Assembly (NCBI GenBank): GCA_027068765.1
Contig: JAMOMC010000074.1
Location: 1 to 39,236 of the forward strand
Origin: Campylobacterales bacterium
GTDB lineage: Bacteria; Campylobacterota; Campylobacteria; Campylobacterales; QNZT01
DNA: 39,236 nucleotides
Reading direction: 5' to 3'
The number at the start of each line of letters is the position of its first letter. The stretch's first letter is position 1. Made by a program: the position numbers and the translations under genes. A model generated the notes under the pieces. It was given only the letters and a program-made list of their open reading frames with translations. It had not been told where the DNA came from and ran no database searches. Of this stretch, positions 6,425 to 39,236 are shown one piece after another.

Positions 6425-6844
6425 ATGAAAAATATACTCCTAATTATACTTTTTATTTTTACCTCCTTAGGTGCTGATATTGCAATTATAAAGAGTGTAA
6501 AAGGCTCTGTGGAGATAAAACGAATCTATGATATATTACCTGTAAAAGTTGGTGACTTATTAAATGAGGGAGATATTATTATGACTAAAGAGGATAGTAG
6601 TGTTGGAATTATTTTTGATGATGGCACAAGATTATCTTTGGGTGCAAAGAGTTATATAACTATAGAGAGGTATATTTTTGATCCTCAAAATAGTAAATTT
6701 GCATTTGATTTAAATATGACTAGAGGTAAAGCTATATTCGAATCAGGTAAGTTTGGAGTAGTAGCTCCTAAAAAAGTTAAGTTTAAAGTTCCAGATGGAA
6801 TTATAGGCATAAGAGGTACAAAGTTTTATGTTGATGTTAGGTAG
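6425..6844 (+). CDS. Secreted FecR-domain protein
   Basis: 139 residues: a signal peptide (about 1-17, ending GA) and one FecR domain (GSVEIKR, VKVGDLLNEGDIIMT, DDGTRLSLGAKS, TRGKAIFESG, GIIGIRGTKFYVDV). Free-standing periplasmic FecR domains of this type usually sit in signalling modules rather than with FecI sigma factors, and no sigma factor is nearby. It is three bases upstream of an OmpA-like gene and co-transcribed with a CHASE2/HD-GYP gene, so it may present a periplasmic signal to the CHASE2 domain. That role is inference. Confidence 0.85.
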   Translation: MKNILLIILFIFTSLGADIAIIKSVKGSVEIKRIYDILPVKVGDLLNEGDIIMTKEDSSVGIIFDDGTRLSLGAKSYITIERYIFDPQNSKFAFDLNMTRGKAIFESGKFGVVAPKKVKFKVPDGIIGIRGTKFYVDVR

Positions 6845-6847
6845 ATA

Positions 6848-7450
6848 GTGCTAGATTTTATAATTGTAGTTTCGATTGTATTGATTTTGGCAGGGTTACA
6901 AGCTAAAAAGACTACACAAAGTAAAGCCTCTATAATTTTAGGTGATAAAAATGGTGCAAACAATGCTATAGTTGTTTCTTCAAAAGGGTCTGAACTTTTG
7001 GTAGATGAGCCATTTATGATGGTGAAATTAAAACCAGATGGAGGTATCTCAAAACCTGTTAAAATATCCGCTAAAGATTTACAAAAGCAGTTTTCAGACG
7101 CACTAGATGCAGAGCCAAAAAAACCATATTCAATTAATTTATATTTTGAAAGCAGTACAAAACTAACATCTTCGTCATTAAAAAATATACAAAATATAAT
7201 GAATGTTCTTAGAGATAAAGAGCCTTATAGTATTGCTATTGGTGGATATACAGATAGTAAAGGAACTTATGAGAAAAATATGCTTATCTCTAAAAATAGA
7301 GCAGAATTTATAAAAGATATACTTCTTGAAAATGGTGTTAAATCTTCTAGAGTTAAAGTTTTTGCTTATGGAGAGAGCGGACAACTCTTTTCCACTAAAG
7401 ATGGTGTAAGAGAAGTAAAAAATAGAAGAGTAGAAGTAATTATAAAGTGA
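6848..7450 (+). CDS. OmpA-like domain protein with N-terminal membrane anchor
   Basis: 200 residues. It begins with a hydrophobic segment (about 2-18), followed by a small beta-rich region and a C-terminal OmpA/MotB-type peptidoglycan-binding domain (about 95-200). The binding-site residues look intact (GGYTDSKG, SKNRAEF, YGES, KNRRVEV). No beta-barrel is present, so this is a wall-binding module rather than a porin. It starts at GTG three bases after the FecR gene and overlaps the next gene by four bases, so the three products are very probably made together. Confidence 0.85.
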   Translation: MLDFIIVVSIVLILAGLQAKKTTQSKASIILGDKNGANNAIVVSSKGSELLVDEPFMMVKLKPDGGISKPVKISAKDLQKQFSDALDAEPKKPYSINLYFESSTKLTSSSLKNIQNIMNVLRDKEPYSIAIGGYTDSKGTYEKNMLISKNRAEFIKDILLENGVKSSRVKVFAYGESGQLFSTKDGVREVKNRRVEVIIK

Positions 7451-19825: not shown

Positions 19826-20449
19826 CTATTTATCATGACAAGATAGACAAAGTTCACTTCTGTGGTTTTTATTTCTTAAAAAGAGTCCATCATCTGTCAT
19901 GGAGTGAGGATCGTGACAAGTGCCACACTCAACTTTTCCATTTCTTAAAATATCAGAGATTGTTTTTGCCCCTTTCCACTCACCAAGAAGAGGGGCTGTT
20001 ATAGGTTTTAAACCTTTAGCTTTTCCAGCTTCATACACAATTGATATAGGATGATCTCCACCTGTTACATGTTGATAGTTAAATCCTTCTCTTTGAGTTA
20101 CTGTTTCGCCTGCATTATTGTAGCTATTGTTAACTACAAAATTTACTGAATTTACACCATCGTGACAACTTAAACAAATCATCGAGTAAGAGTGAGGAGT
20201 GGAATTAGAGCTTTGTGTATCTGATAAGGCTCCTGAGTATAGAGAAAATGACTCTTTCTTTTTTGAATTGTCCCAAAGTTGTTTGCTAAAAGGAGTACCA
20301 CTTAGTTGTGGAGGATGGCAATATTCACACAGTTGACTGTTCTCTGCATCACTTGCATCTACTGAGAGGTTGTGAGGAGTTTGTAGCATTTGTGCATTTA
20401 ATGTTACTAGGATTAACAATGTTGATAGTATATAAATTTTTTTTAACAT
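19826..20449 (-). CDS. Secreted tetraheme c-type cytochrome (paralogue of the 32114 gene)
   Basis: 207 residues. A signal peptide (about 1-20) and four CXXCH motifs starting at C41 (CEYCH), C92 (CLSCH), C175 (CGTCH) and C201 (CLSCH). It aligns along its length with the tetraheme protein at 32114-32806: HNLS, CLSCHDGVN, DHPISI, VECGTCHDPH and a C-terminal CLSCHDK. It differs after heme 1, where PPQ replaces the TPH that supplies a histidine in the other protein; H86 (STPHSY) and H127 are possible substitutes. It is likely periplasmic or extracellular. It lies between the sulfur operon and the SPOR-like gene, apart from the main cytochrome cluster. Confidence 0.85.
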   Translation of the reverse strand: MLKKIYILSTLLILVTLNAQMLQTPHNLSVDASDAENSQLCEYCHPPQLSGTPFSKQLWDNSKKKESFSLYSGALSDTQSSNSTPHSYSMICLSCHDGVNSVNFVVNNSYNNAGETVTQREGFNYQHVTGGDHPISIVYEAGKAKGLKPITAPLLGEWKGAKTISDILRNGKVECGTCHDPHSMTDDGLFLRNKNHRSELCLSCHDK

Positions 20450-24542: not shown

Positions 24543-24582
24543 AAGAGAGATAAAAATTTGTTATATTTAAAGGGAAGTGATG

Positions 24583-25896
24583 ATGAAAAATTTTACAAAA
24601 AAAGGAAGTTTATTTTTAATATCTATTTTTGTAACTATACTATTTTTAAATGGTTGTGGAGGGGGCGGAGGTACTAGTGTAAAAAATGTAGCAGAAGAAG
24701 CACCTGCTCAAAAAGTTGAAAAAGTAGCACAAGAGATAGCAGCGCAAGAGGAGAAGATTGAAGTTGCTATTGTACCAGCTGCTAAAGAAGAGCTTGTTTT
24801 TGAGCCAAATCTAAAGCAGTCCAAGAAGGTTACTCATCCTCCATATGGATCAAAACTGTGTTCAATGTGTCATAAGTCATCTAATCCAAAAGATGGAAAT
24901 GACCTCACAATGGAGCAGCCAGACCTTTGTTATCAATGTCACGATAAAGATGCCAAAGAGGGTAAAAAATTTATTCACGGGCCAGTTGCTGCTGGAGCTT
25001 GTAGTATATGTCATAATCCACATGATTCAGAAAATTCATCACTTCTAAGATATTCAAATGTAAATGAACTATGTACATCATGTCATAGTGCAAAAGGTGA
25101 GTTTTTAAAAAATACAGAAAATATTCATCCACCAGTGAAAGATTCTTGTGTAAATTGTCATGACCCTCATACAGAGGATTATGAATTTCAATTAAGAGCA
25201 GATAGAAAAAAAGATATATGTTTAACCTGTCATGTTGATAAGCAAGATTGGATTAATAGTGTGAAAAGTAAACACGGCGCTATAAATATGGGTACTGGTT
25301 GTCAAAATTGTCACGATCCTCACGGTACAGGTCAGCCAAAGATGATGAAAGCTGCAACTGTAAAAGATATGTGTTTAAAATGTCACTCTCAAGAGTTAGT
25401 AACAGATGAAGAGGGGTATAAGCTTCAAAATATAGGAAAGCATTTAGATGAGAATCCAGATTGGCATGGGCCTATTCAGTGGGGAGATTGTGCGATGTGT
25501 CATAATCCACATGGATCTGATAATCTAAGAATGTTAAATAAACCATTTCCAAAAACATTTTATTCAAAGTTTGATGAGAAAAACTATATCTGTTTTGAGT
25601 GTCACGATTCAGAGAAGATAAAAAAAGCACAAACCATTGAAGATACAAACTTTAGAAATGGTAATAGCAATATGCATTTTGTTCACGTTGGTAAAGAGAA
25701 AGGTCGTACTTGTAGAGCATGTCATGATTTTCACGGAACAAAAGATTATCCACATCATTTAAAGAAAAAGACACAGTTTGGAAAGATTAGTTTTCCTTTA
25801 AGGTTTATTGAGACTCCAACTGGTGGCTCTTGTGCACCTGCTTGTCATGCAAGACGTGGTTATGATAGAGAAAATCCTATCAAAAATTTGAAATAG
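24583..25896 (+). CDS. Dodecaheme lipoprotein c-type cytochrome
   Basis: About 437 residues. A lipoprotein signal ends at LNGC (C25), followed by a Gly run and an Ala/Glu/Lys linker to about residue 75. Then come eleven CXXCH motifs, many as CHNPH or CHDPH (doubled-CXXCH cytochromes), and a twelfth, non-standard CX3CH near the C-terminus (CAPACH, 25831-25848). No Asp follows the lipid Cys, so it probably goes to the outer membrane. I use ATG 24583, seven bases after AAAGGGA; an ATG and a GTG lie immediately upstream. It is 14 bases from an 8-heme cytochrome gene. Likely role: electron transfer at the outer membrane. I see no catalytic site. Confidence 0.88.
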   Translation: MKNFTKKGSLFLISIFVTILFLNGCGGGGGTSVKNVAEEAPAQKVEKVAQEIAAQEEKIEVAIVPAAKEELVFEPNLKQSKKVTHPPYGSKLCSMCHKSSNPKDGNDLTMEQPDLCYQCHDKDAKEGKKFIHGPVAAGACSICHNPHDSENSSLLRYSNVNELCTSCHSAKGEFLKNTENIHPPVKDSCVNCHDPHTEDYEFQLRADRKKDICLTCHVDKQDWINSVKSKHGAINMGTGCQNCHDPHGTGQPKMMKAATVKDMCLKCHSQELVTDEEGYKLQNIGKHLDENPDWHGPIQWGDCAMCHNPHGSDNLRMLNKPFPKTFYSKFDEKNYICFECHDSEKIKKAQTIEDTNFRNGNSNMHFVHVGKEKGRTCRACHDFHGTKDYPHHLKKKTQFGKISFPLRFIETPTGGSCAPACHARRGYDRENPIKNLK

Positions 25897-25910: not shown

Positions 25911-26978
25911 ATGCTTAGAGGTATTTTATCTGTTTTATTTTTTGTTTTTTCTCTTGGAGCGGTTGAAGCAAAAAGTGGTTCATTTGAGATCCTAAAGCCT
26001 GAGAGTAAAGGTGTTTATGATGAAGATTATGCATCTATAGTCATTAAAAGGTTAGACGCATCTTTGCAAAAGGTTAGCATAGTTCTTGCGGATGATGTTA
26101 TAATCGAGTTGAAATTAGGTGAAAAAGATAGAGATGTTTATTGTAAAACTATCAATTTAAAACTTGGTAACAACAGAGTTATATTGGTTGGTTATTCTGC
26201 TGATAAAGAGTTAACAAGAAAAGAGTTAAATCTTTTTCATAGGTCTGAAGTATATGAAGGTTTTGTTGATGAACCCAGCGGATATAAGAGAAATTTTTTT
26301 CACATAAATAAAAATGAGAAGTTATGTAAATCTTGTCACAATATGAATCCTGATAAAAACAGTTTAAAAAAGAAGCATATCTCTCCATCAGAGATAAATT
26401 CTAGAGATTTTGATATTTTAGAAAATCCTGAGGATTCAAATTGTTACGAGTGTCATAAAACGATAACTTATAGAAAAAACGGTCATGCCCCTTCTGTGAA
26501 TTTTTTATGTACAGAGTGTCATACAGGAAAAGGTGGAGAGTTTAATCTGCAAGATGAAGGTAAATCAAAATACCTTATGCCAGATCCTATCATGGGTAGA
26601 TGTTTCTCTTGTCATGAGGGTATAAAAGAGAAGTGGTTTTCTAACACTTCAGAACACGGTCCACTTCGTTCAGGAAGATGCAATAAGTGTCATAATCCTC
26701 ACTCTTCAGCATATGAGTTTCATTTAAGAAAACCTATTTGGGATCTTTGTACAACTTGTCATTCTGAAAAAGCTACAGGGAAACATGTCATAGGAAGTTT
26801 TGTTTTTAGTAGAAATGAAGGGAGCCATCCTACTCGTGGTAGACCTGATCCATCTCGTCCTGGTCGTGAGCTTGTCTGTTCAAGTTGTCATAACCCTCAC
26901 GGTTCAAACGGAATATTTTTACTTAGAAGTAAAGGGAAAAGAGCTTTTAATGTTTGTCAAAGGTGTCACAAAAAATAA
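25911..26978 (+). CDS. Octaheme secreted c-type cytochrome with N-terminal beta domain
   Basis: 355 residues. A signal peptide (about 1-21, ending VEA) is followed by a region without hemes (about 22-125) that reads as an Ig/fibronectin-like beta sandwich, then eight CXXCH motifs (CKSCH, CYECH, CTECH, CFSCH, CNKCH, CTTCH, CSSCH, CQRCH). Several are followed by NPH, giving likely distal histidines. It ends five residues after the last Cys pair begins. Co-transcribed with the 12-heme lipoprotein, it probably receives or passes electrons in the periplasm. AAGG lies upstream of the ATG. Confidence 0.88.
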   Translation: MLRGILSVLFFVFSLGAVEAKSGSFEILKPESKGVYDEDYASIVIKRLDASLQKVSIVLADDVIIELKLGEKDRDVYCKTINLKLGNNRVILVGYSADKELTRKELNLFHRSEVYEGFVDEPSGYKRNFFHINKNEKLCKSCHNMNPDKNSLKKKHISPSEINSRDFDILENPEDSNCYECHKTITYRKNGHAPSVNFLCTECHTGKGGEFNLQDEGKSKYLMPDPIMGRCFSCHEGIKEKWFSNTSEHGPLRSGRCNKCHNPHSSAYEFHLRKPIWDLCTTCHSEKATGKHVIGSFVFSRNEGSHPTRGRPDPSRPGRELVCSSCHNPHGSNGIFLLRSKGKRAFNVCQRCHKK

Positions 26979-27027: not shown

Positions 27028-27855
27028 ATGCGAATTAGATTTCTTTTACTTTTAACTCCTTTACTTTTGCAAAGTGTTACAATGGAAGAGTTAAAAACGA
27101 AAGCTTTAGAAGCTAAAGAGAAGAGAGACTTATCTGAAATACAGCATGATATGAGAGAGAGACTAAAACACTCTGATACTTACAATAAGAGTACAAGTGA
27201 AATGAAGAGTCGAACATATAATACAGCAAAAAGAAAAGCAAAATCTGGAGATGCCAATGCTCAATTTGCATTGGCTGGTATGTATTATCATGGTATTATG
27301 GCAAAAAAAAGTTATTTAAATGCTATAAAGTGGTATGAGAAGGCTGCTATTAAAGGACATAAAAAAGCACAATTTAATTTAGGATATATCTATTTTGATG
27401 GTCGTGGAGTTCCAAAAGATCATAATAAAGCACTAAAATGGTTTTTAAAAGCCTCTAAGGGTGAAACTAGAGAGTTAGGTAATGGTAAGTCAGATATGTA
27501 TATTGGCAAAATATATGATGAGAGAGGTGATTATAAAAATGCTTTTATCTGGTATCTTGATGCAGCAAAGTTAAATTATCCATTAGCTCAATATGAGTTA
27601 GCTATGAGATATAAATATGGTAAAGGGTGTGATAAAGATATTAAAAAGATGATATATTATCTGAAAAGAGCTGCGGCTCAGAGTGAAGCAAAATCTCAAT
27701 ATGAGTTGGCTTTAGCATACCTAAGAGGTAGTGGAGTTACAAGAGATATGGAAGATGCAAAACAGTGGATGCAGAATGCCTATGTAAATGGTGAAAATAG
27801 AGCTAAAGAAATTTTAGAAAAATATAAGTGGGAAATCCCAAATAAAAAGGAATAA
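27028..27855 (+). CDS. Secreted Sel1-repeat protein, first of a tandem pair
   Basis: 275 residues. A hydrophobic N-terminus (about 2-17) reads as a signal peptide. A charged helical segment follows (about 20-70), then about five Sel1-like repeats (about 75-260; AQFALAGMYYHG, AQFNLGYIYFDGRGV, AQYELAMRYKYGKG, SQYELALAYLRGSGV). Sel1 repeats form alpha-solenoid binding surfaces. The third repeat is irregular, with a GETRELGNGKS insertion. The AAGGTGG site precedes the ATG. It probably assembles or scaffolds envelope proteins; its place between cytochromes suggests a role in that system, which is inference. Confidence 0.82.
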   Translation: MRIRFLLLLTPLLLQSVTMEELKTKALEAKEKRDLSEIQHDMRERLKHSDTYNKSTSEMKSRTYNTAKRKAKSGDANAQFALAGMYYHGIMAKKSYLNAIKWYEKAAIKGHKKAQFNLGYIYFDGRGVPKDHNKALKWFLKASKGETRELGNGKSDMYIGKIYDERGDYKNAFIWYLDAAKLNYPLAQYELAMRYKYGKGCDKDIKKMIYYLKRAAAQSEAKSQYELALAYLRGSGVTRDMEDAKQWMQNAYVNGENRAKEILEKYKWEIPNKKE

Positions 27856-27862
27856 AAATAAA

Positions 27863-28666
27863 ATGAAAAAACTACTAACAATAACTGCTATAAGTATGGC
27901 TTTAATTCAAAGTTTATGGGCAGATTTGGGAGAGATGAGAGAGAAGATATCTCAGGCCACAATAGAAGATAAAAAAGAAGTAAATAGTATAGATTTTATG
28001 AAGAAAAAAGCTTTAGAAAATGCCAAAAAAAGAGCTATTGGTGGAGATATTAACTCTCAACATGCATTAGGTAGCATGTACTATTTAGGAACTGTTATAA
28101 AGGTAGATTATGAAAAAGCTTTAAAGTGGTTTAAAAAAGCTGCTAAAAGTGGACATACAAAAGCACAGTATGATTTGGCTTATATGTATTATGAGGGTAG
28201 AGGAGTTCAAAAAAATTATGAAAAAGCTTTAAAGTGGTTTAAAAAAGCTGCTAATCAAGGTGATATAAAAGCTCAAGTTTATTTGGCTGATATGTATTAT
28301 GAAGGTAAGGGTGTTGAAATTGATTATAAAAAAGCATTTTATTGGTATGAAACAACAGCAGCTTTGGATTATGCTAAATCTCAATATAAATTAGCTGATA
28401 TGTATTTTGATGGCAAAGGGCTACCTAAGAATTATAAAAAATCAGCATTTTGGTTTGAAAAAGCATCAAAGCAAAGTTATGCAGATGCTCAGTATAGATT
28501 AGGACTTATGTATATAGCAGGAGATGGTGTTAAAAAAGATATGAAAAAAGCTAAAAAATTGACTAGGCAAGCATATTTAAATGGAAGTGAGGATGCGATA
28601 GATGTTTTAAAAAACCAAGCTTGGAAAATCCCAAAACCTATAAAAGCTATTTACCTTGATGAATAA
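27863..28666 (+). CDS. Secreted Sel1-repeat protein, second of a tandem pair
   Basis: 267 residues. Signal peptide about 1-20 (ending LWA), helical segment, then five regular 36-residue Sel1 repeats (about 68-245). Units 1 and 2 share an exact 40-base stretch, a sign of recent duplication. Its end (WKIPK) matches that of the upstream paralogue (WEIPN), so both come from one ancestor. The ribosome site AAGGA overlaps the upstream stop codon. Probably periplasmic and co-expressed with its neighbour. Confidence 0.85.
   Translation: MKKLLTITAISMALIQSLWADLGEMREKISQATIEDKKEVNSIDFMKKKALENAKKRAIGGDINSQHALGSMYYLGTVIKVDYEKALKWFKKAAKSGHTKAQYDLAYMYYEGRGVQKNYEKALKWFKKAANQGDIKAQVYLADMYYEGKGVEIDYKKAFYWYETTAALDYAKSQYKLADMYFDGKGLPKNYKKSAFWFEKASKQSYADAQYRLGLMYIAGDGVKKDMKKAKKLTRQAYLNGSEDAIDVLKNQAWKIPKPIKAIYLDE
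28107..28254 (+). repeat. Exact 40-bp direct repeat inside the second Sel1 gene
   Basis: The same 40 bases occur at 28107-28146 and 28215-28254, 108 bp (36 codons) apart, encoding YEKALKWFKKAA in neighbouring Sel1 units. Recombination between the copies would remove or add exactly one repeat in frame. Confidence 0.9.
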
Positions 28667-28710: not shown

Positions 28711-29073
28711 ATGAACAAATTATTATTAAGTACGGTTTTTATGGTATTAGTTTCTACTACTTCAGTAAATGCTTGGAATCCAATGAATGCAGAGTCCGCA
28801 GTTGTAGATGGTAGTACGACTTTTGAGACAAATGGATGCACTATGTGTCATGATGAAAATATGGAGAAGATGGGGCCATCTTTGATGACAATTAGAATGA
28901 GTTATGGTGGAGATGAAAATGCTCTAGTTAGTTTTTTTAAAGGTGAGACACCTGCTAGAGTATACCCTGCAAAAGCTGCAATGATGCAACCACAGCTTAT
29001 GAAAATACAAACTTTGTATGATAATGAGATAAGAGCATTAGCAAGATATGTATTAGGTATTGAGAAGTTTTAA
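28711..29073 (+). CDS. Monoheme periplasmic c-type cytochrome
   Basis: 120 residues. Signal peptide about 1-21 (ending VNA) and one heme motif CTMCH at 43-47, followed by MGPSL. The C-terminal part has MMQPQ, a likely Met ligand, and the last helix DNEIRALARYVLG, as in small c8/c551-type carriers. It probably shuttles electrons in the periplasm. A GGAG site lies ten bases before the ATG. It precedes the sensor and two-component genes by 23 bases. Confidence 0.88.
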   Translation: MNKLLLSTVFMVLVSTTSVNAWNPMNAESAVVDGSTTFETNGCTMCHDENMEKMGPSLMTIRMSYGGDENALVSFFKGETPARVYPAKAAMMQPQLMKIQTLYDNEIRALARYVLGIEKF

Positions 29074-29096: not shown

Positions 29097-30215
29097 ATGA
29101 AAAAGCTTTTTATATTTTTAGCATTTATCATTGCGGTAGTTTTTGCTATTTTGATGATAAATACGGGTAAAAAGCTTGATTTAAAAAAGCAAGCCCACAT
29201 TCATGATAACATAAATAAGATATTGCTAAAAAGTATTGATAGTGAAAAAACACCACCTTTATCTTTGGCAATAGCATTAAGTTCTAGCCGCTCAATTCAA
29301 GATGTAGTTTTAGATAATGATAGAGATTTAGGACATAAAGTACTTAAAGCTGCAGCAGAGTCTTTAAAAAAACACTCAAGTAAAGCGGATATATATATAC
29401 AAATTTTTACAAAAGATTTAGATGTATTTGCTAGAAGTTGGGAGTCTTCAACACCTATAATTCCTTTAGTAACTGGAAGAAAGGCAGCACTAAAAGAGTC
29501 TATAAAACATAAAAAACCGATGACGGGTATAGATTTTGGTCTTCCACTTGGAATTAAATCATCTTCAATGATAATGTATAAAAATGAATTTTTAGGTATT
29601 TTAGAAGTTACAACACCTTATGAGGCAATAGTATCTAAAATAAGAGAGTATGGGATAGAGATAGTTCCACTTATAAGTCTTAACTTTGTTCCTATGATTT
29701 ATATTGAGCAAAAAAGTCTTTTTACTGTTGGCGGTACTTTAGCAGTTGCAAATCAAAATACAAATCATGCCCTAATAAATAGACTTAAAGCATTAAACGA
29801 AAAAGAGCTTAATGAATTAATGACAAATGACTTTGTATTAACTTCTTCTCATTTTTTTGCTTCATATGCGTTAAAAAATCCTCACGGTCAAAAACTTGGT
29901 GCTTTTATAGCTATCATAAAGAAAGATGATTATAAAGATTTTTTGGGTGAGCAAAAATCACTTTTAAGAAGTGTTTATACAATTGATAGCAGTGAAGAGG
30001 ATGTATACAATTATATAAAAAATCAAGAAAAAAATATATTTTCAGATATTAAAGAGAAACATTTAATTGAGCTTAATAACTTAGCAGATGGGAAAGATAA
30101 GCTTGATATGTATGAGGCATCTAAGGTAATATTACAAGATTACTCAAAAGAGGATTTAATTGAGTTAATTTTGAGAGGTAGAGACAATAAACAAATTGAA
30201 GGGGAGATAAGATAG
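29097..30215 (+). CDS. Membrane-anchored periplasmic sensor protein, double-Cache-like, no output domain
   Basis: 372 residues. A single N-terminal membrane helix (about 3-21) is followed by an entirely extracytoplasmic body. The segments DIYIQIFTKDLDVFARSW, KAALKESIKHKKPMTGIDFG and YKNEFLGILEVTTPYEAIVSKI fit a Cache-type ligand-binding domain, and a second similar region lies at about 205-285. No kinase, HAMP or cyclase part follows. The next two genes encode a response regulator (overlap three bases) and a kinase, so it probably delivers a ligand signal to that kinase. The ligand is unknown. The Cache assignment rests on pattern and context. Confidence 0.7.
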   Translation: MKKLFIFLAFIIAVVFAILMINTGKKLDLKKQAHIHDNINKILLKSIDSEKTPPLSLAIALSSSRSIQDVVLDNDRDLGHKVLKAAAESLKKHSSKADIYIQIFTKDLDVFARSWESSTPIIPLVTGRKAALKESIKHKKPMTGIDFGLPLGIKSSSMIMYKNEFLGILEVTTPYEAIVSKIREYGIEIVPLISLNFVPMIYIEQKSLFTVGGTLAVANQNTNHALINRLKALNEKELNELMTNDFVLTSSHFFASYALKNPHGQKLGAFIAIIKKDDYKDFLGEQKSLLRSVYTIDSSEEDVYNYIKNQEKNIFSDIKEKHLIELNNLADGKDKLDMYEASKVILQDYSKEDLIELILRGRDNKQIEGEIR

Positions 30216-30871
30216 TGAAAATACTGCTACTTGAAGATGAATATGCTTTAAGAATAACTATAAAAGAGCTTCTTGAAGATAACGGCTATGTTGTAGATGA
30301 TTATAGTAATGGAGATGAAGCTTTTGATGCAGTTTATTATAATAGTTATGATTTATTGTTATTAGATGTAAATGTACCAGGTATGAGTGGTTTTGAACTT
30401 TTAGAAGAGATAAGAAAAAGTGATTCACAGATACCTGCTATTTTTATAACCTCTTTTACTGAAATTGATAATTTAGAGAAGGGGTATAATGTTGGTTGTT
30501 GTGATTATATAAAAAAACCTTTTGATTTGGTAGAACTTAGAGTGCGAGTTGCAACAGCTTTGAAAAATGTTATGCCACAAAGTACAAATGATATTATACT
30601 ATTAGCTCTAGGTTATGAGTATGATGCTAAAAACTTTTCACTTAAACATAATGAACAAGATATACAACTCTCAAAAACTGAAAAGATGATTTTGGATCTT
30701 TTTGTAAAACATAAAAATCAAGTAGTTAGTCCTGATATGATAAGAGATTATGTCTGGGATGATTATGTAGATCCTGCAAATATAAGAGTTCAGATAAATA
30801 ATCTAAGAAAAAAACTTGATAAAAATTTAATTGTAAATATAAGAGGTGTAGGATACAAACTTGAAACTTGA
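30215..30871 (+). CDS. OmpR-family response regulator
   Basis: 218 residues. Receiver domain about 1-118: acidic pocket E7/D8, phospho-acceptor D51 (LLLDVNVPG), T79 (FITSF), K101 (IKKPFD). Winged-helix DNA-binding domain about 128-218 (LSKTEKMILDLFVKH, VSPDMIRDYVW, NIRVQINNLRKKL, IRGVGYKLE). The GTG start has GGGGAG upstream and overlaps the sensor stop. Such regulators bind tandem repeats about 10-11 bp apart; such a repeat lies just downstream of the kinase gene. Confidence 0.93.
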   Translation: MKILLLEDEYALRITIKELLEDNGYVVDDYSNGDEAFDAVYYNSYDLLLLDVNVPGMSGFELLEEIRKSDSQIPAIFITSFTEIDNLEKGYNVGCCDYIKKPFDLVELRVRVATALKNVMPQSTNDIILLALGYEYDAKNFSLKHNEQDIQLSKTEKMILDLFVKHKNQVVSPDMIRDYVWDDYVDPANIRVQINNLRKKLDKNLIVNIRGVGYKLET

Positions 30872-32036
30872 AGTCAATGAGAGACGCTTTTCATTAAAAT
30901 ATGCAACGATATATACTTTGATTATTATTGGAGTCTTGTTTGCACCATTTGCAATTTATGATAAATATAGATATTCGGTAGAGGAGGTAAAGACGGAGAT
31001 ATCTTTAAAGAAAAAAGCTATTGAGATTATAAATGAGATGGAGAGATTTAATCCTAATATAGATAAATATTTTACATACCCAAGATATAAAATATATCAG
31101 TCAGGACTTTATGATGATAGTACAAATCCAATTTTTACAACTGTTGATGAGAAGATAACTATATCTAATCTAAGGCAAGGGTACAGTAGACAAGGTAGCC
31201 ATAGGTTATATGTGATGAAGTTAATAGATGGTAAATATTTTGGTGCATCTTATTTAGTTGTGGTAACGGAGTTCAATATATATGCAGTGCTTGAAAATAT
31301 TTTGATTATATTTTTGACTGTACTTACTGTTGTATTTGGATTGTCATTTTTGATACTTAAAAATTTTGCAAAACCATTTAGACAGATAAATGAAGCATTA
31401 GATGAGTTTATAAAAGATGCGATGCATGAGATAAATACACCTTTAGCTATTATAAATATAAATATAGATGTATTTAGCGAAAAGTATGGCAAAAATAAAT
31501 ATCTATCAAGGATAAAATCCGCTTCAAAAATATTATCAACTATATATAATGATATGAATTACCTTATAAAAGAGCAAACTATAAATAGAGCTAACAAGCA
31601 GAGTATTAATTTCTCAGATTTTTTAAATAAGTCTGCATGTTACTTTCAAGAGATTGCAGAGCTTAAAAATATTGAGCTAATTACAGATATAGATGATCTT
31701 ATAATGTTAGAGTTTATTCCTACAAAGTTACAGAAGATAATAGATAATAATCTTTCAAATGCAATTAAGTACTCATATGAGAATTCTAAAGTAATAGTAA
31801 CACTTAAGAAAAATGGAGATAGAGCTATACTAGGTTTTAGAGATTTTGGCATGGGTATAAAAGATCCTGATATGATTTTTTCGAGATATTATCGAGAAGA
31901 TAATGCAAAAGGTGGCTTTGGAATAGGTTTAAATATAGTTGGTAAGATTATAAATGAAGAAGATATTACCGTAAAAATAGAGTCTGAACTGAAAAAAGGT
32001 GCGTATTTTGAGTATATTTTTAAAAAAATAAACTAA
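30861..32036 (+). CDS. Sensor histidine kinase
   Basis: 391 residues. Two membrane helices (about 13-32 and 139-165) flank a roughly 105-residue periplasmic loop. There is no clear HAMP domain. H189 in DAMHEINTPLA is the phospho-acceptor. The ATPase domain has the N box (DNNLSNAIKYS, 295-305), G1 (DFGMGI) and G2 (GGFGIGLNIVG). The TTG start is 11 bases inside the regulator gene, with AGGAT six bases upstream. It forms a signalling set with the regulator and the separate Cache-like sensor. Confidence 0.92.
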   Translation: MKLEVNERRFSLKYATIYTLIIIGVLFAPFAIYDKYRYSVEEVKTEISLKKKAIEIINEMERFNPNIDKYFTYPRYKIYQSGLYDDSTNPIFTTVDEKITISNLRQGYSRQGSHRLYVMKLIDGKYFGASYLVVVTEFNIYAVLENILIIFLTVLTVVFGLSFLILKNFAKPFRQINEALDEFIKDAMHEINTPLAIININIDVFSEKYGKNKYLSRIKSASKILSTIYNDMNYLIKEQTINRANKQSINFSDFLNKSACYFQEIAELKNIELITDIDDLIMLEFIPTKLQKIIDNNLSNAIKYSYENSKVIVTLKKNGDRAILGFRDFGMGIKDPDMIFSRYYREDNAKGGFGIGLNIVGKIINEEDITVKIESELKKGAYFEYIFKKIN

Positions 32037-32113: not shown

Positions 32114-32806
32114 ATGAAAAAGTTTACAAAAATCATAACGACTGTGTCAGTTGCTTTAATGTTAAGCTCAACATTTGCATCTGCGGCTATGAAAGGTTCT
32201 AAGCATGATATAGGTGGTGCTGAGGGTGGTAATGAAGGGGATGATCAAAGAATTTGTGTCTATTGTCACACTCCACACGGTGCTTCATTGGTAGAGGGTG
32301 CTCCTTTATGGAATAAAGTGTTACCTTCTGGAGAAGGTTTTACAATGTATGGAACTACATATGCTGGTAACAATCCAGAGGCGACAATTTCTGGTCCTTC
32401 ACTTGTATGTTTAAGTTGTCACGATGGTGTTAATGCTGTTAACTCTGTAGTTAATATGCCTGGACGTGCTGGATATAATGTTGATGGTACAATCATGGGT
32501 GCAGCTGTAAGAATGACAATATCACCAGTTCTTACTGTTGCTAATGATGGTTTAACAAATGATCATCCTATCTCTATTATCTATGATGAGACAGCAGCAT
32601 CTTTAAGACCAAAAACTACAGTTCTTGCAAGTATAGAAGGTGCACCTGCAGCTGATTGGGGTAACTATACTACTATCCAAAACTTGTTAAGAAGTGATAG
32701 AGTTGAGTGTGGTAGTTGTCACGATCCTCACCGTGCTGAGAATGGAACATTCTTAAGAATTAAAAATACAGGTTCAGCTCTTTGTTTAACTTGTCACGAT
32801 AAATAG
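32114..32806 (+). CDS. Secreted tetraheme c-type cytochrome, nanowire-type candidate
   Basis: 230 residues. Signal peptide about 1-24 (ending ASA) and four CXXCH motifs at C48, C99, C199 and C224. The mature protein has exactly four other histidines (H31, H55, H151, H206), one distal ligand for each heme, so all four can be bis-His. The arrangement (H...CVYCHTPHG...CLSCHDG...DHPI...CGSCHDPH...CLTCH) resembles the tetraheme cytochromes, such as Geobacter OmcE, that polymerise into extracellular filaments; the size is also similar. Filament formation is inference. AAGGAG precedes the ATG. A strong terminator follows, so it can be made in excess over its neighbours. Confidence 0.88.
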   Translation: MKKFTKIITTVSVALMLSSTFASAAMKGSKHDIGGAEGGNEGDDQRICVYCHTPHGASLVEGAPLWNKVLPSGEGFTMYGTTYAGNNPEATISGPSLVCLSCHDGVNAVNSVVNMPGRAGYNVDGTIMGAAVRMTISPVLTVANDGLTNDHPISIIYDETAASLRPKTTVLASIEGAPAADWGNYTTIQNLLRSDRVECGSCHDPHRAENGTFLRIKNTGSALCLTCHDK

Positions 32807-32820
32807 TCGACAAACTACTA

Positions 32821-32857
32821 AAGATCAGTAAGATTTTATCTTATTGGTCTTTTTTTA
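32821..32857 (+). terminator. Rho-independent terminator after the tetraheme cytochrome gene
   Basis: A 14-bp stem with two G-U pairs (32821-32834 with 32838-32851), a TTT loop, and a run of seven T. It lies 15 bases after the stop codon at 32806, so the cytochrome has its own short transcript. Confidence 0.9.
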
Positions 32858-33200
32858 TGTATATAAAAATATAATAACTTTCAATATACCCCTTTTCATT
32901 TTTTATTTTTTAATCTAAAAATAATTTCTATCTTAAATCTTTTACTTTATAATTTGAGTTCTATAATAATAGCTGTGACTACTATGTTCTATCAAATACA
33001 GGTTTATATATTTATTAAAGTATTAATCTTAAGTTGTTTTATTAAAATTACCTGAAGAGATATTTATCATTAATTACAATTACTACTTTAAAAATTTTAT
33101 ACTTTAAATATAAGTAAATTTTTTTTACATTTTATAGATATGTAAGAAATTATAGGTTAGAATAAGAAAAATTTATAAATTAAGAGTATGGAGGAAGAGG
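32858..33200. other. AT-rich intergenic region with no gene recognised
   Basis: About 340 bases between the terminator and the NHL lipoprotein gene. It has no open frame of useful size and no tRNA-like fold. A TATAAT occurs near 32966-32971 with only a weak -35, and TTTACA at 33124-33129 has no well-spaced -10. It probably holds the promoter and control sites of the NHL lipoprotein gene; I cannot fix them. Confidence 0.5.
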
Positions 33201-34391
33201 GTGAACTTTACATTTAGTGCATTATTTAGGGGTTTTGTCGTTGGTTTAGTTGGGTTAACATTTGTGGCTTGTGGTGCTAAAAAAATAGAAAAGATTAATA
33301 TAGTGATACCACAGCCACCTGAAGAACCAAGATTATTTTTTATAGATAGGTATTATGGAAGCAGTAGTTTTACTGATTCTAGCACATTGGATTTATTGAT
33401 CGGTGAAGATAAAGGTGCAACTTCAGGAAATCTTTTTAAGCCTTATGGTGTTGCAGGCTCTAAAGGAATGATGTATGTGAGTGATACAGCAGTTGGTAAT
33501 GTATTTGCTTTTGATATTAAAAATAAAAAAGTGACTCATATAGGAGATAGAGCGGAGGGTAGATTAAATACTCCAGCAGGGGTAACATTAGATAGTAAGA
33601 ACAATGTATATGTAAGTGATGCAAAACAGAAAAAAGTTTATGGGTATGCCCCTGATGGATCTTTGATATTTGCTTTAGGTAAAAAAGGTGAGTTTATAAG
33701 ACCAGCAGGTTTAGCAATAGATAAAAAACTAAATAGGATATATGTTGTTGATGTAAAAGCACATTTAGTAAAAGCCTATTCTCTTGATGGTAAGAAGCTT
33801 TTTCAATTTGGAAAAAGAGGGACAGGAGAGGGTGAGTTTAATTTTCCAACAAATGTGGCTGTTAGTCCAATAAATGGAAATATTGTTGTTGTTGATACTC
33901 AAAATTTTAGAGTTCAGATATTTAATAAAGATGGTAAATTTATAAGAAAATTTGGTCAAATTGGAGATCAACCTGGAACATTTGCTAGACCAAAAGGGGT
34001 TGCGATTGACAGTGAGGGTCACATATATGTTGCTGATGCAGCTTTTAATTTAGTTCAGATATTTAACGAAGCTGGAAATCTACTTCTCTATTTTGGAGGA
34101 CACGGTAGATCTCCTGGATTATTTTGGCAAATGGCTGGTATGTATATAGATGAGAGTGATAAAGTTTATATAGTTGATAATATGGGTAATGCCGTTCAAG
34201 TATATCAGTATGTGAGTGAAAAATGGAAAAAGGCTAATCCAAAAAAATATAAAGAACTTAAAACTCTTAAGAATGAAGAGGTTAAAAAAAATGAACTTAA
34301 AAAAGAGAAAAAGTTAAATCCATCTGATTCTGACATTTTAGAACAGACTCCTGGTAAAGGTGAACTTGAAAAAAGCCTTCATAATTTTTAA
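33201..34391 (+). CDS. NHL-repeat beta-propeller lipoprotein
   Basis: 396 residues. A lipoprotein signal ends near FVAC (C24; -3 is Phe, a slightly weak lipobox). Six NHL repeats follow (about 75-345), with the recurring pattern PxGVAxDxxxxxYVxDxxxxxVQIFxxxG. A Lys/Glu-rich tail makes up about 347-396. The propeller resembles that at 37162-38175 blade by blade, so they are paralogues. NHL proteins of this kind occur beside multiheme cytochrome genes in Geobacter; their job there is not known, and assembly or surface binding is possible. The GTG start has GGAGGAAG upstream. Confidence 0.88.
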   Translation: MNFTFSALFRGFVVGLVGLTFVACGAKKIEKINIVIPQPPEEPRLFFIDRYYGSSSFTDSSTLDLLIGEDKGATSGNLFKPYGVAGSKGMMYVSDTAVGNVFAFDIKNKKVTHIGDRAEGRLNTPAGVTLDSKNNVYVSDAKQKKVYGYAPDGSLIFALGKKGEFIRPAGLAIDKKLNRIYVVDVKAHLVKAYSLDGKKLFQFGKRGTGEGEFNFPTNVAVSPINGNIVVVDTQNFRVQIFNKDGKFIRKFGQIGDQPGTFARPKGVAIDSEGHIYVADAAFNLVQIFNEAGNLLLYFGGHGRSPGLFWQMAGMYIDESDKVYIVDNMGNAVQVYQYVSEKWKKANPKKYKELKTLKNEEVKKNELKKEKKLNPSDSDILEQTPGKGELEKSLHNF

Positions 34392-34399
34392 TAGTTTTT

Positions 34400-34429
34400 T
34401 TGATGTGTAGTTTATATACTAAATATAAT
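34400..34429 (+). promoter_or_regulatory. Promoter for the prolyl isomerase-barrel-NHL-cytochrome genes
   Basis: TTGATG (34400-34405), 18 bp, TATAAT (34424-34429), about 25 bases before the ATG at 34455. It would start a transcript carrying the isomerase, barrel, second NHL and last cytochrome genes. Confidence 0.55.
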
Positions 34430-34454
34430 AATTAATATAAGGGGAAATTTTTAA

Positions 34455-35399
34455 ATGAAAAGATTTATAGGTATAGTGATGGTTTTGTTGTTTGTTTCAA
34501 ATTTGTATGCAAAAGAAGAAGTTGTATATTCTGATGTTTCCGTGGCAAAGGTAAATGGAGAGGATATAACAAGAGCTGAGATTGAAAGGGCTATTGATGT
34601 TTTAGCACCTAGGACCTATTTTCATGCCAATATTACAATTGAAAAGAGAGAGAAGTTAGTTGACAAAGCACTTGATAATGTTATAGAGAGGAAACTTCTA
34701 TCTCAATATGCAAACAAGCTTGGTATAAAAGCTTCAGATGGAGAAGTTAAAGAGTATGTTGCCAAAGTAGCTGGCAAATTGGGTGATAAGAAAAATTTTA
34801 TACAAGCACTTAAAAAAGCTAATATGGATTATGATACTTTTGAAAATGAAATCAAAATAGATATACAGATGAAAAAACTTTATGAAAAAGAGATAAAAAA
34901 AACATATACCGAAGCTGAGATAAAAGAGTATTATGAAAAAAATAAGTTTAAGTTTCAAGAACCCCAAAAAGTTAAAGTTAGAGTAGTTTATGCACGAAAT
35001 GATCCAACTAAACCAGATGGAAAAAGTAAAGCTTTAAAAAAAATCAAAGAGGCTGAGTTAAAAATTAAAGAGGGTGCAAAATTTGCCGATATTGCTTCTA
35101 AGTATTCTGATGCTATGAGTCGAGTAAAAGGTGGGGATGTTGGTTATACTCATAAAGGTATGTTAGACCCTGCTATAGATAAGGTGGCATTTACTTTAAA
35201 AGTTGGAGAGGTTAGTGAAATCATAGAAGACCCAAAAGGTTTTTATTTAGTTAATGTTGAGGAGAAAATAACTCCTAAACCTATAACATATGAAGAGACA
35301 AAAGGAAAACTTAAAAAGAGAATGATTTCAAAGATTGAGAAGCAGAGAAAAAAAGAGTTATTAGATAAGCTATTAAAAGATGCAAAAATAGAAAGATAG
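34455..35399 (+). CDS. Secreted parvulin-type peptidyl-prolyl isomerase (SurA/PrsA-like)
   Basis: 314 residues. Signal peptide about 1-19 (ending YA), a SurA_N-like helical chaperone region (about 28-160; VAKVNGEDITRAEIERAI), a rotamase domain (about 165-272; FADIASKYSDAMSRVKGGDVGY, VAFTLKVGEVSEIIEDPKGFYLV), and a basic C-terminal helix. It should help fold or insert exported proteins. It is three bases upstream of the barrel-gene region and co-transcribed with it, which suggests a dedicated helper for the barrel or for the multiheme proteins rather than the general SurA. Confidence 0.9.
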   Translation: MKRFIGIVMVLLFVSNLYAKEEVVYSDVSVAKVNGEDITRAEIERAIDVLAPRTYFHANITIEKREKLVDKALDNVIERKLLSQYANKLGIKASDGEVKEYVAKVAGKLGDKKNFIQALKKANMDYDTFENEIKIDIQMKKLYEKEIKKTYTEAEIKEYYEKNKFKFQEPQKVKVRVVYARNDPTKPDGKSKALKKIKEAELKIKEGAKFADIASKYSDAMSRVKGGDVGYTHKGMLDPAIDKVAFTLKVGEVSEIIEDPKGFYLVNVEEKITPKPITYEETKGKLKKRMISKIEKQRKKELLDKLLKDAKIER

Positions 35400-35407
35400 A
35401 GTTGAAA

Positions 35408-37138
35408 ATGGTAAAAATAAAGAAAATTTTGTTGATAGGTGCTGGCTTATCGCTATTAAGTACTAGCATCAAAGCAAATAACGAACTTTTTACCACGAGA
35501 GGATTATATGGAGGAATTCAATATATCTACTTAGACAACTATTATGAGATAAATAAAAGAACTAGTAAGTCATATCTTCAAATATATCAAATGGGTTATG
35601 AGGGCTCTTTGTATAGTCCAAGACTTTTAACTTATGATGTCTCTGGAACACTCTATTTTGATAAAACGAAAAGATCAAATGGTGAAGATTTAAGTATTAA
35701 TGATCAAAGTTTTAAAGCATATTTAAATTTAATTCAAGGATCTAAATATCCATTTACTCTATTTGTAGAGAAACAGTCTCTTCCAACTATAAATTTGATA
35801 AGTGATTATGTCTATTCAAAACAAGATTTATATAGATACGGTCTATATGGTTCTATGAAATTTGGTAAATATATGTTAAGTTACGATGCAAGATATAGAG
35901 ATTCTGAAGTAAAAGGTGTTTTTAGTGATGAAAAAGTAAAAGGTAGTTCACTCTCTTTAACTCTTAGTAGAAGTTTTGAAAAACACTTTTTATCTCTTTA
36001 TTTGAGAAGAAATGATACAAACTATTATAGAAAAAGTTTTGCAGATGATAGTGAAACAGATAGAAATGATAAAACAAGTGATGCAAGAGTTACATATAAT
36101 TATAACCCAAGTAGGACTTTTCGTTTAAACTCTTATGTTGGATACTCTGATATTGAGTATTATGATATGAAGAGAATAACCTCAAATGCAACTTTTTATT
36201 GGACACCAGATGATTTATACTCTCTTAGTTTTGGAGTAATTGGAGAAAATTTAAAGTACAGTGAAAGTTTTTCTAACTTTACATCAATCTTTGCAAATGG
36301 TAGATATAAAGTCTCTTCAAATCTATTATCAACACAAAGCATACAGTTTTATAACTCTACAAGTAGCAATTATGAGCAAAATACTGGTTCAGTAAACTTA
36401 GGTCTTAGATATAGTGGCAATTTTGATAAAAGTTTGTCATACTACATCAGTGGAAATACAGGGTTAAGTGTAGAGAGAGGAAGTGGTGAAGAAGGTGTTG
36501 ATGAGACGATATTAGATAGAAATACTCAAAGTATAAACATAGGTTTTGGAACAACAAAACGATTTATTGCAAGTGGTAATTTGTTGGGATTTTCTGCTTA
36601 TTATAATAAATTTACTTCTGATTTAGGAGAAGAGAGTGATAGATACACTCTCTCTTCAAATTTCATGACAAGAATAAGAAATAATTTACTTTACAGTATA
36701 AATGCTACTTATTCAGATGGTGAGAGTATCGGTATTAAGTATCGTGATGATGATAGAGTAGTAAAAACAAAAACAACACTTCTTACGGTTACGAATAAAT
36801 TACAGTACAATACAAATATAGGTATAAATGGTAGATTTTCAGCTACAACAGGATTAACTTATGTATATTCAAATCTTGGAAATTCATCAGGGTTTAGACC
36901 ATATGTGAACTTAACATTTTATTATAGATTGCGAAGAAATTTAGTTTTTAGTTCAGTTTCAAATATTTCGAGAGATACATATGGGGATACAACTAATTAT
37001 TCAAACTTTAATGGATTAGAGTATGCAGTTAGAAAAATAAGATTTTCAGCAGGTGCTAGATTTTCCAACTCAATAAGTGATACCAGAAAAGGGCAACAAA
37101 GAAGAAATATCTATTTGAAAGTTGAGAGAGTATTTTAA
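35408..37138 (+). CDS. Large outer-membrane beta-barrel protein, candidate conduit porin
   Basis: 576 residues. A signal peptide (about 1-23, ending IKA) is followed by alternating hydrophobic and polar strands rich in Tyr, Ser and Asn with Asp/Lys turns, ending in a strand that closes with Phe (YLKVERVF), the usual outer-membrane barrel signature. The length would suit a barrel of roughly 20 strands. I do not recognise a named family. I use ATG 35408; a TTG two codons upstream has no separate ribosome site. Set among secreted multiheme cytochromes and a folding helper, it is the natural candidate for the pore of a porin-cytochrome complex. Confidence 0.82.
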   Translation: MVKIKKILLIGAGLSLLSTSIKANNELFTTRGLYGGIQYIYLDNYYEINKRTSKSYLQIYQMGYEGSLYSPRLLTYDVSGTLYFDKTKRSNGEDLSINDQSFKAYLNLIQGSKYPFTLFVEKQSLPTINLISDYVYSKQDLYRYGLYGSMKFGKYMLSYDARYRDSEVKGVFSDEKVKGSSLSLTLSRSFEKHFLSLYLRRNDTNYYRKSFADDSETDRNDKTSDARVTYNYNPSRTFRLNSYVGYSDIEYYDMKRITSNATFYWTPDDLYSLSFGVIGENLKYSESFSNFTSIFANGRYKVSSNLLSTQSIQFYNSTSSNYEQNTGSVNLGLRYSGNFDKSLSYYISGNTGLSVERGSGEEGVDETILDRNTQSINIGFGTTKRFIASGNLLGFSAYYNKFTSDLGEESDRYTLSSNFMTRIRNNLLYSINATYSDGESIGIKYRDDDRVVKTKTTLLTVTNKLQYNTNIGINGRFSATTGLTYVYSNLGNSSGFRPYVNLTFYYRLRRNLVFSSVSNISRDTYGDTTNYSNFNGLEYAVRKIRFSAGARFSNSISDTRKGQQRRNIYLKVERVF

Positions 37139-37161
37139 GAGATATGATAAAAAGGGAAAAC

Positions 37162-38175
37162 ATGAAATTTAAAAGTATATTTTTAATACTGATTTTATCG
37201 ATTAATATCAATGCCAAAGAGATACAAAAGTTAGTATGGCCATCAGCACCAGACCCAGCAAGAATAGAGTTTAAAGCTTTGATAACTTCTCCTGAAGATT
37301 TAGAGATTAAAAAAGGTATTTTTTCAAGAGCTTGGGAGTTTTTTGCAGGTAGTAGTGAAGAGGAGAGATTTGTAAAGCCATTTGGTTTACATGTAGATGA
37401 GAATCAAAGGCTTTATGTTTCCGATACTGGCACAAGAATAGTCTCTGTTTTAGATACAAAGAAAAATAAAAAATTTATAATTGAAGGTACAAAAAAACAT
37501 AGATTTATATCCCCCATGGATATAGATACAGATAAAGAGGGAAATATTTATATTTCAGACTCTGTTTTAGGGTTTGTCTATGTTTATAATAAAAAAGGAA
37601 AATATCTCAGAAAGATTGGTGAGGGTAAAAAGTTACATAGACCTGTTGGTATTGCGATTGATAGTAAGTTAAAAATAATTTATGTAGCAGACACTTTGGC
37701 TAGTAAGATACAAGTTTATTCACTTTTTGGTAAATATATAAAGACAATAGGTAAAGAGGGTGCAGAAGATGGTTCATTTAATAAACCAACATACATAGCT
37801 CTTGATGATGATAGCAATCTTTATATTTGTGATTCAATGAACCATAGAGTTCAGATACTTGATAAAGATGGAAAATTTATTAGTAAATTTGGAAAGATTG
37901 GTGATACACTAAGCTCTTTAGCAAATCCACGAGGAATTACAATAGACTCTAATGGAAATATTTTTGTAACCGATACTACTTTTCATGTTGTGAAAATATT
38001 TAATAAAAAAGGTCAGCTACTCTTAGTTCTTGGACATTATGGAGAAAAAAGAGGTGAGTTTGCAATTCCTGAAGATATAGCAATCTCTAGTGAGGGAGTT
38101 ATATATATCGCAGACTCTTATAACATGAGAGTACAAGTTTTGAAGTTATTAAAAAATGTAAAGAGTGGAGGTTAA
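37162..38175 (+). CDS. Secreted NHL-repeat beta-propeller protein
   Basis: About 337 residues. Signal peptide about 1-18 (ending INA), a conserved N-terminal stretch (LVWPSAPDPARIEF, 24-37) typical of NHL proteins next to cytochromes, then six NHL repeats (about 70-330; GLHVDENQRLYVSDT, GIAIDSKLKIIYVADT, HRVQILDKDGKF). No lipobox, so it is probably periplasmic or secreted. ATG 37162 is chosen because AAGGGA lies five bases upstream; an in-frame ATG at 37144 has no such site. The stop is three bases from the next start. Confidence 0.88.
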   Translation: MKFKSIFLILILSININAKEIQKLVWPSAPDPARIEFKALITSPEDLEIKKGIFSRAWEFFAGSSEEERFVKPFGLHVDENQRLYVSDTGTRIVSVLDTKKNKKFIIEGTKKHRFISPMDIDTDKEGNIYISDSVLGFVYVYNKKGKYLRKIGEGKKLHRPVGIAIDSKLKIIYVADTLASKIQVYSLFGKYIKTIGKEGAEDGSFNKPTYIALDDDSNLYICDSMNHRVQILDKDGKFISKFGKIGDTLSSLANPRGITIDSNGNIFVTDTTFHVVKIFNKKGQLLLVLGHYGEKRGEFAIPEDIAISSEGVIYIADSYNMRVQVLKLLKNVKSGG

Positions 38176-38178
38176 GTT

Positions 38179-39236
38179 ATGCAAAATTTTAAACAACTGA
38201 TTGTATTATTATTTTTATCACAAAGTTTTCTATTTGGAACGATATTAAATACTAAACATAATCTTTCAAATGTTGGTGTTGGTACGATAAAAGGTACAAG
38301 TGAAACAGAGGTTTGTGTTTTTTGTCATATACCTCATGCCACACAAGAGGGAGCACCTCTTTGGAATAGAGCGATGCCATCGAGTGAATACAAAATGTAT
38401 GAGAGTGAGTATCTTGATAGATTAAATTATCCAAAACCTGTAAGTCTAGGTGCAACAAAAGGTGCTCCAGGCTCTATATCAAGACAATGTTTAAGTTGCC
38501 ATGATGGAACTATTGCTATTGGAGCTGTCTATTTGGTGAGGGGTAATATATTAGGAAATACTCTTATTGATATGGCTGGAGTAAGTGCAGATGGAACTAT
38601 GTTAGAGGGTGCTTTAGGGCATATTGGAACAGATCTCTCTTTTCATCATCCAGTTGGTTATGAGTATGATCCAAGCGTTACAAAAAGTTTTGGACAAGGA
38701 GTGAGAACAAGTGAATTAAAAGCAGTTCCAGATGCTCCTATTAAATTACAGCAATATGGAGGGAAACAGTATGTAGAGTGTACCTCTTGTCATGATCCTC
38801 ATCTTGAAAATGCGAAATTTTTAAGAGTTCATTCAGCAGGAACTCATGGTCAAAATGTTGTAAGTACTTGTACCTCTTGTCATCAAAAAGATCAGTGGGT
38901 AGGAAGTGCACACAATGGTGCAACTCACTCATATAGTGATCCAGCTATCTTAACAAAATATGGCACAAACTCAATTTCAGCATTAGGATGTATAAATTGC
39001 CATACACCTCATAATGGAGAGAGCAGTTCATACCTACTTAGAAAAATAGAGCAAAATACTTGTTTTCAAGGGGCAGCAGGCTCTGTAGCAACGGCTGCTT
39101 GTCATGGAACAGGGGCAACTAAAGATATAGAGTCCGTACTTTCAAGATCATACGGACACCCTGTAAATCAAATAGATGGTGTACATACCAATCTTGATAC
39201 TTTATATGGAACAGGGGTTGCTAGAAATCCTGCAGG
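38179..39236 (+). CDS. Multiheme c-type cytochrome, cut by the window end
   Basis: At least 352 residues; the gene continues past 39236. Signal peptide about 1-21. Five CXXCH motifs at C46 (CVFCH), C104 (CLSCH), C201 (CTSCH), C231 (CTSCH) and C271 (CINCH). A sixth site is CX12CH: C295, then C308-H309, at 39061-39105. The first 215 residues follow the tetraheme family (KHNLS, CVFCHIPHA, PLWN, CLSCHDG, HHPVG, CTSCHDPH), and the rest adds further doubled-heme units. The last visible part (SYGHPVNQIDGVHTN) supplies more histidines. It is probably the outer cytochrome of the conduit encoded by the genes just upstream. Confidence 0.88.
   Translation, partial: MQNFKQLIVLLFLSQSFLFGTILNTKHNLSNVGVGTIKGTSETEVCVFCHIPHATQEGAPLWNRAMPSSEYKMYESEYLDRLNYPKPVSLGATKGAPGSISRQCLSCHDGTIAIGAVYLVRGNILGNTLIDMAGVSADGTMLEGALGHIGTDLSFHHPVGYEYDPSVTKSFGQGVRTSELKAVPDAPIKLQQYGGKQYVECTSCHDPHLENAKFLRVHSAGTHGQNVVSTCTSCHQKDQWVGSAHNGATHSYSDPAILTKYGTNSISALGCINCHTPHNGESSSYLLRKIEQNTCFQGAAGSVATAACHGTGATKDIESVLSRSYGHPVNQIDGVHTNLDTLYGTGVARNPA

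Follow-up and report, generated by a model that had tools for sequence, protein, structure and literature searches.

The export of cytochrome nanowires and the transfer of electrons from the periplasm onto them are open questions in the field, and both matter for a gene cluster at the end of a contig from a Campylobacterales bacterium (JAMOMC010000074.1, assembly GCA_027068765.1). The window analysed here is this complete contig of 39 236 bases. At 32114–39236 it carries six open reading frames (ORFs), all on the plus strand, which we call A, N1, P, B, N2 and J. They encode, in this order, a tetraheme cytochrome, an NHL propeller lipoprotein, a prolyl isomerase, an outer-membrane barrel, a second NHL propeller and a larger multiheme cytochrome, and all six products have signal-like N-termini. 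An earlier sequence-only reading had described six secreted-protein genes of an extracellular electron transfer system in a Campylobacterota host. The ORFs, signals and domains were indeed found, loci from the same genus and order agreed with the host assignment, and the locus very probably encodes a module for extracellular electron transfer. We further consider it probable, though far from certain, that this module is a cytochrome-nanowire system of the OmcE type, which would extend nanowire-type electron transfer to the Campylobacterota.

What would the filament be made of? Gene A (32114..32806, plus strand) encodes a secreted OmcE-type tetraheme cytochrome of 230 amino acids, presumed to be the filament subunit, with a signal peptide, four CXXCH motifs and a paired-CXXCH match in Pfam. 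A search against all solved structures returned two full-length matches. One is the OmcE filament 7tfs, whose residues 11–232 align to residues 12–230 of A (E-value 9e-26); the other is 9yuq, described as a ‘putative multiheme cytochrome c’ (E-value 2e-27). The closest solved relative is chain N of 9yuq, which contains 16 identical chains, a number that suggests another OmcE-like filament. A has exactly eight histidines, four within the CXXCH motifs and four elsewhere, and the alignment shows them to be conserved across the family loci. This number would suffice for bis-histidine ligation of all four hemes. According to PMC9473688, a histidine of one OmcE subunit ligates a heme of the neighbouring subunit; the eight histidines of A therefore fit an OmcE-like polymer, with no ligand to spare. 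Judging from these sequence features, A may well polymerise into an OmcE-like filament. A second OmcE-like tetraheme paralogue, possibly related, was found by alignment 12 kb upstream on the minus strand (19826..20449), with one otherwise conserved distal histidine replaced (CHPPQ). Several Campylobacterota have an extra tetraheme paralogue between N1 and P (L050 6529–7203, L023 6992–7681 and L020 7270–7943).

A filament subunit would be needed in excess over the proteins that assemble it, and the layout of the cluster is consistent with this. Directly 3′ of A lies a terminator-like hairpin on the plus strand (32820..32852) with a 15-bp stem and a T run (−15.5 kcal/mol, z = −4.7). Scanning 117 bases past each gene end by one rule for all, we found a hairpin with a T run after A in 15 of 20 loci from two phyla, compared with 1 of 73 other junctions; shuffled sequences gave a mean of 0.17 hairpins after A per 20 loci. 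The A–N1 gap, 394 bases in the window, measures 117–831 bases in every locus, and N1-P-B-N2-J are mostly closely packed (window gaps of 63 bases for N1–P, 2 for P–B, 5 for B–N2 and 3 for N2–J). Together, hairpin and gap form the arrangement expected for a subunit in excess over its assembly proteins, and A is probably made in excess over the remaining cluster genes, as far as an expression level can be predicted from DNA.

Does the cluster form a unit beyond this strain? The association is far beyond chance, both in its order in two phyla and in the co-occurrence of its genes. Among 299 genomes of the host order, the barrel was found in 15 and the C-terminal part of J in 14, with 13 containing both where 0.7 would be expected by chance (Fisher p = 8e-20, which overstates independence because the genomes are related). 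The three mismatches lay at contig edges or in an incomplete genome. Loss of J in the nearest relatives, G020 and G011, was considered and proved wrong, as J sits on other contigs there. The order A-N1-P-B-N2-J recurs in Campylobacterota and Nitrospirota, and a GTDB scan with the N2 family retrieved the same order in Nitrospirota and in one Nitrospinota metagenome-assembled genome; P was not seen in loci L039 and L041. In a survey of 296 Nitrospirota genomes, about ten had a strong barrel, mostly flanked by N1, P, N2 and J, and the most distant of these lineages (L117, L118) keep the A-N1-P-B-N2 core, with a large cytochrome that varies. Trees of N2 and J place the Campylobacterota on one side with good support, and in the J tree they and the Nitrospirota/Nitrospinota form separate, well supported sides, so recent transfer between the phyla was rejected for the sampled rows. 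We found no member of the barrel family in viral contigs and no J in plasmids, hence no sign of a mobile or phage origin; a Foldseek search of B against viral proteins returned generic barrels only.

What kind of barrel does the cluster encode? B (35402..37138, plus strand), the presumed exit pore or port, is 578 amino acids long and ends in phenylalanine. It had no match in Pfam and none by sequence in the PDB. AlphaFold2, using 19 aligned homologues, predicted a plug-free barrel of 28 strands behind a signal peptide (predicted local distance difference test (pLDDT) 87, predicted template modelling (TM) score 0.66). The sequence-only reading had named two outcomes that would speak against it, a barrel modelling as a transporter with a plug and a gene order confined to this strain, and neither came about. 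The plug-free model also argues against B being a transporter of solutes or an export pore for adhesins, unrelated to the cytochromes and beside them by accident. The Foldseek search against solved structures did return barrels of many kinds, with E-values for TonB receptors, ushers and LptD as good as those for MtrB. Set against a gene order and a co-occurrence that tie the barrel to J, the NHL proteins and OmcE-like cytochromes in more than one phylum, however, an accidental neighbour appears very improbable.

The comparison with MtrB needs more weight, because the sequence-only reading had likened the cluster to the MtrCAB and porin-cytochrome (Pcc) conduits. On that account, B would form an insulating sheath around a multiheme cytochrome, J or a different one, that acts as the wire, and A would be a small soluble or surface partner that forms no filament. 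The predicted 28-strand barrel without a plug is in the right size class, MtrB (6r2q_B) had the top TM-score among the matches listed for B (0.49, compared with 0.39 or less), and B and J are almost strictly co-inherited. Yet a TM-score of 0.49 with a root-mean-square deviation of 12.6 is a general similarity of barrel models that shows no kinship, the MtrB_PioB family (PF11854) is absent from the whole host genome and does not include B, and no MtrA/DmsE-family cytochrome scored above the cut-off in the window. A conduit of this type would also give no reason why A is of the OmcE type and followed by a hairpin, why a prolyl isomerase is encoded or why J has an OmcE-like domain. We therefore regard the nanowire analogy, given that B lies outside MtrB_PioB and A is an OmcE-type homologue, as stronger than the one to MtrCAB/Pcc. 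A pure conduit is unlikely, though it deserves to be kept in mind, and the two accounts are not fully exclusive of each other.

The last gene, J (38179..39236, plus strand), could show where a filament would be anchored. By comparison with its homologues it is the N-terminal half of an undecaheme cytochrome with an OmcE-like N-terminal domain. The larger multiheme cytochrome said to close the set is thus present, but only as a half: the window ends with the contig, which truncates J at 352 amino acids with five CXXCH motifs and a Paired_CXXCH match in Pfam, and a genome search did not find the missing half elsewhere in the host assembly. The fragment is 62–67% identical to Campylobacterota homologues, and 62–65% to complete ones of ∼700 amino acids, which makes J far more conserved than the barrel at 22–36%. 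A complete J carries ten CXXCH motifs, or eleven in the case of two copies, and a further motif, C[FY]xG...CH, with 12 residues between the cysteines (CX12CH), is present in 24 of 26 J sequences, including that of the window. A heme motif with such a long loop has a precedent in OmcZ, where the loop has 14 residues (PMC9473688). Ten CXXCH plus CX12CH give eleven hemes, the count after which UetJ, a protein of the Uet set discussed below, is named. Residues 5–240 of the J family match OmcE (E-value 4e-31).

This composite build leads us to suggest, tentatively, that J is a hybrid base plate, which would nucleate an OmcE-type filament through an N-terminal domain that copies the nanowire subunit and wire it to the periplasm through C-terminal hemes in or under the barrel; the predicted Uet complexes would then be nanowire systems in several phyla. 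If so, J would be the piece that has been missing between conduits of the outer membrane and nanowires built of cytochromes. A second, stand-alone J occurs on another contig in two relatives (L123 3395–5398 in G020 and L124 3634–5628 in G001). These copies have no adjacent barrel or NHL genes and together form their own branch.

The remaining three genes encode candidates for assembly functions. N1 (33201..34391, plus strand) is a six-bladed NHL propeller lipoprotein of 396 amino acids (NHL E-value 2e-26) with the lipobox FVAC. P (34455..35399, plus strand) is a secreted SurA/PrsA-like PPIC prolyl isomerase with SurA_N_3 and Rotamase_3 domains, presumably a chaperone, and N2 (37144..38175, plus strand) is a second, secreted NHL propeller (NHL E-value 2e-30, supported by the family alignment). 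In the mechanism we propose, A would be exported as an OmcE-type tetraheme filament subunit, made in excess by virtue of its separate hairpin, while P and the two propellers would fold, guide and tether it. B would provide the exit for A, the point at which the electron path crosses the membrane, or both. J would be the fixed base, possibly placed in the barrel, with the OmcE-like domain of its first ∼240 residues seeding or capping the A filament. Its about seven further hemes would link, through or at the barrel, to periplasmic octaheme and undecaheme lipoprotein relays encoded upstream. All of these components, the OmcE-type subunit with its presumed chaperone, the pair of propellers, the very large barrel and J, lie in a cluster compact enough for expression as a unit.

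Several points weigh against a nanowire system. The filament is predicted here from genes, and homology to OmcE is no proof of polymerisation. The AlphaFold2 prediction of J reached a pLDDT of only 31, so nothing was concluded from it, and among the genes of the host nothing stood out as a full NapC/CymA-type quinol oxidase. The links to the Osc and Uet systems drawn below rest on gene content, not on protein sequences. Finally, the physiological role of cytochrome filaments is disputed even in Geobacter (PMC11077965, PMC13194489).

In which direction would electrons flow? Besides passing electrons outward, the same machine could run inward, taking up electrons from Fe(II), cathodes, other cells or minerals, as has been proposed for Uet of Ca. 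Tenderia electrophaga and iron oxidisers; such a reading bears on direction alone and is partly shared with the other accounts. Campylobacterota are often lithoautotrophs, which would suit uptake, and in its genes the cluster is similar to the Uet set known from Gallionella and from Tenderiales that oxidise cathodes. Against this, OmcE is tied to outward transfer in Geobacter (PMC1829397), and sequence does not reveal direction. We consider inward operation quite conceivable, without expecting it. Within the phylum, one Sulfurimonas is known to reduce Mn(IV), and a second was noted to have no complete known conduit (PMC11748539).

How far does the cluster extend? The span of 32114–39236 given by the sequence-only reading is too short, as the cluster reaches upstream to about 24577, with all of the following genes on the plus strand. 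Its first gene (24577..25896) encodes an undecaheme lipoprotein cytochrome with 11 CXXCH motifs and one CX3CH, a probable periplasmic or outer-membrane electron relay, with homologues of 61–65% identity adjoining the cluster in loci L047 and L051. It is followed by a secreted octaheme cytochrome with eight CXXCH motifs (25911..26978), probably a periplasmic relay, which has homologues adjoining the cluster in L047, L051, L042 and L114, and further on by a monoheme class I cytochrome c (28711..29073; Pfam Cytochrom_C, E-value 1e-7) with homologues near the cluster in L047 and L051. A regulatory trio separates these cytochromes from A. It is headed by a sensor-like, membrane-anchored periplasmic protein without a Pfam match (29097..30215) and continues with a response regulator (30215..30871) and a histidine kinase with HATPase_c/HisKA domains (30861..32036). 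The trio is conserved beside the cluster in Campylobacterota and precedes A in L006, L020 and L028, where the leading protein is of similar length. On the other side, 3′ of J, many relatives encode a small protein and a CcsBA/ResB-type cytochrome c synthase, which in the host genome would fall past the contig end.

Other genes in the window and the host genome are noted here for completeness. Beside the cytochromes, at 27028–28666, lie two tandem secreted Sel1-repeat proteins, and Sel1-type proteins also occur near the cluster in L020, L023 and L026. The host genome encodes two very large paired-CXXCH cytochromes related to the undecaheme lipoprotein of the window (L126, contig G000:C112, 7190–8746, and L156, contig G000:C164, 7209–9059); one has 16 CXXCH motifs and one, cut by its contig end, at least 20. 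At 6425–9369, translations judged by eye revealed a series of FecR-like, OmpA-like and CHASE2/HD-GYP-like genes, which may form an operon for envelope signalling.

Which described system does the cluster resemble most? The sequence-only reading had suggested that the six-gene set may be undescribed. Its gene content is, however, that of a predicted set, the undecaheme electron transfer (Uet) genes found in Gallionella and in Ca. Tenderia electrophaga (Eddie et al. 2022, as reported in PMC10734462). There the extracellular tetraheme UetA corresponds to A, the peptidylprolyl isomerase UetB to P, the barrel UetC to B, the NHL proteins UetHI to N1 and N2, and the undecaheme UetJ to J. Uet further includes three periplasmic triheme cytochromes, UetDEG, and the window contains no triheme ORF but instead the octaheme and undecaheme relays and the regulatory trio. 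We therefore call the cluster Uet-like rather than Uet; a triheme cytochrome is present in the cytochrome clusters of relatives G020 and G011. The passages on Uet in PMC10734462 do not tie it to OmcE or nanowires, and on our comparison the Uet genes carried by electrode and iron oxidisers may well encode a system of this kind.

A functional parallel from Geobacter sulfurreducens is offered by its osc (omcS companion) operon (Shen et al. 2025, cited in PMC13194489 and PMC12977616), for which roles in OmcS nanowire folding (OscH), secretion (OscEFG) and morphology (OscD) have been proposed. In both cases such proteins appear to be encoded beside a nanowire subunit, a likeness of presumed function drawn from gene content. 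Unlike the cluster described here, osc serves the hexaheme OmcS, which has no sequence similarity to OmcE. With MtrCAB/Pcc the cluster appears to share a large outer-membrane barrel, predicted to be plug-free, adjoining multiheme cytochromes, but no MtrA- or MtrC-family protein exceeded the cut-off in the window: for TIGR03508 (MtrA/DmsE), the undecaheme lipoprotein scored 137 bits and complete J 47, against a cut-off of 192.2.

OmcE itself (7tfs) is matched by A over its full length, and both proteins have the four heme motifs and the four additional histidines. Other multiheme cytochromes are encoded at the omcE locus of G. sulfurreducens too, along with a pair of proteins for cytochrome c biogenesis (PMC2700814, PMC1829397); GSU0614 is a member of this pair and not a prolyl isomerase. 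The cited papers describe no composite J with such an OmcE-like domain from Geobacter, and the host belongs to another phylum. Matching the predicted Uet set and paralleling osc, the gene set is thus not undescribed. Its novelty lies in the phylum, in J as a composite protein, in the transcription signal that sets A apart, and in the evidence for reading a Uet-like set as a nanowire system of the OmcE type.

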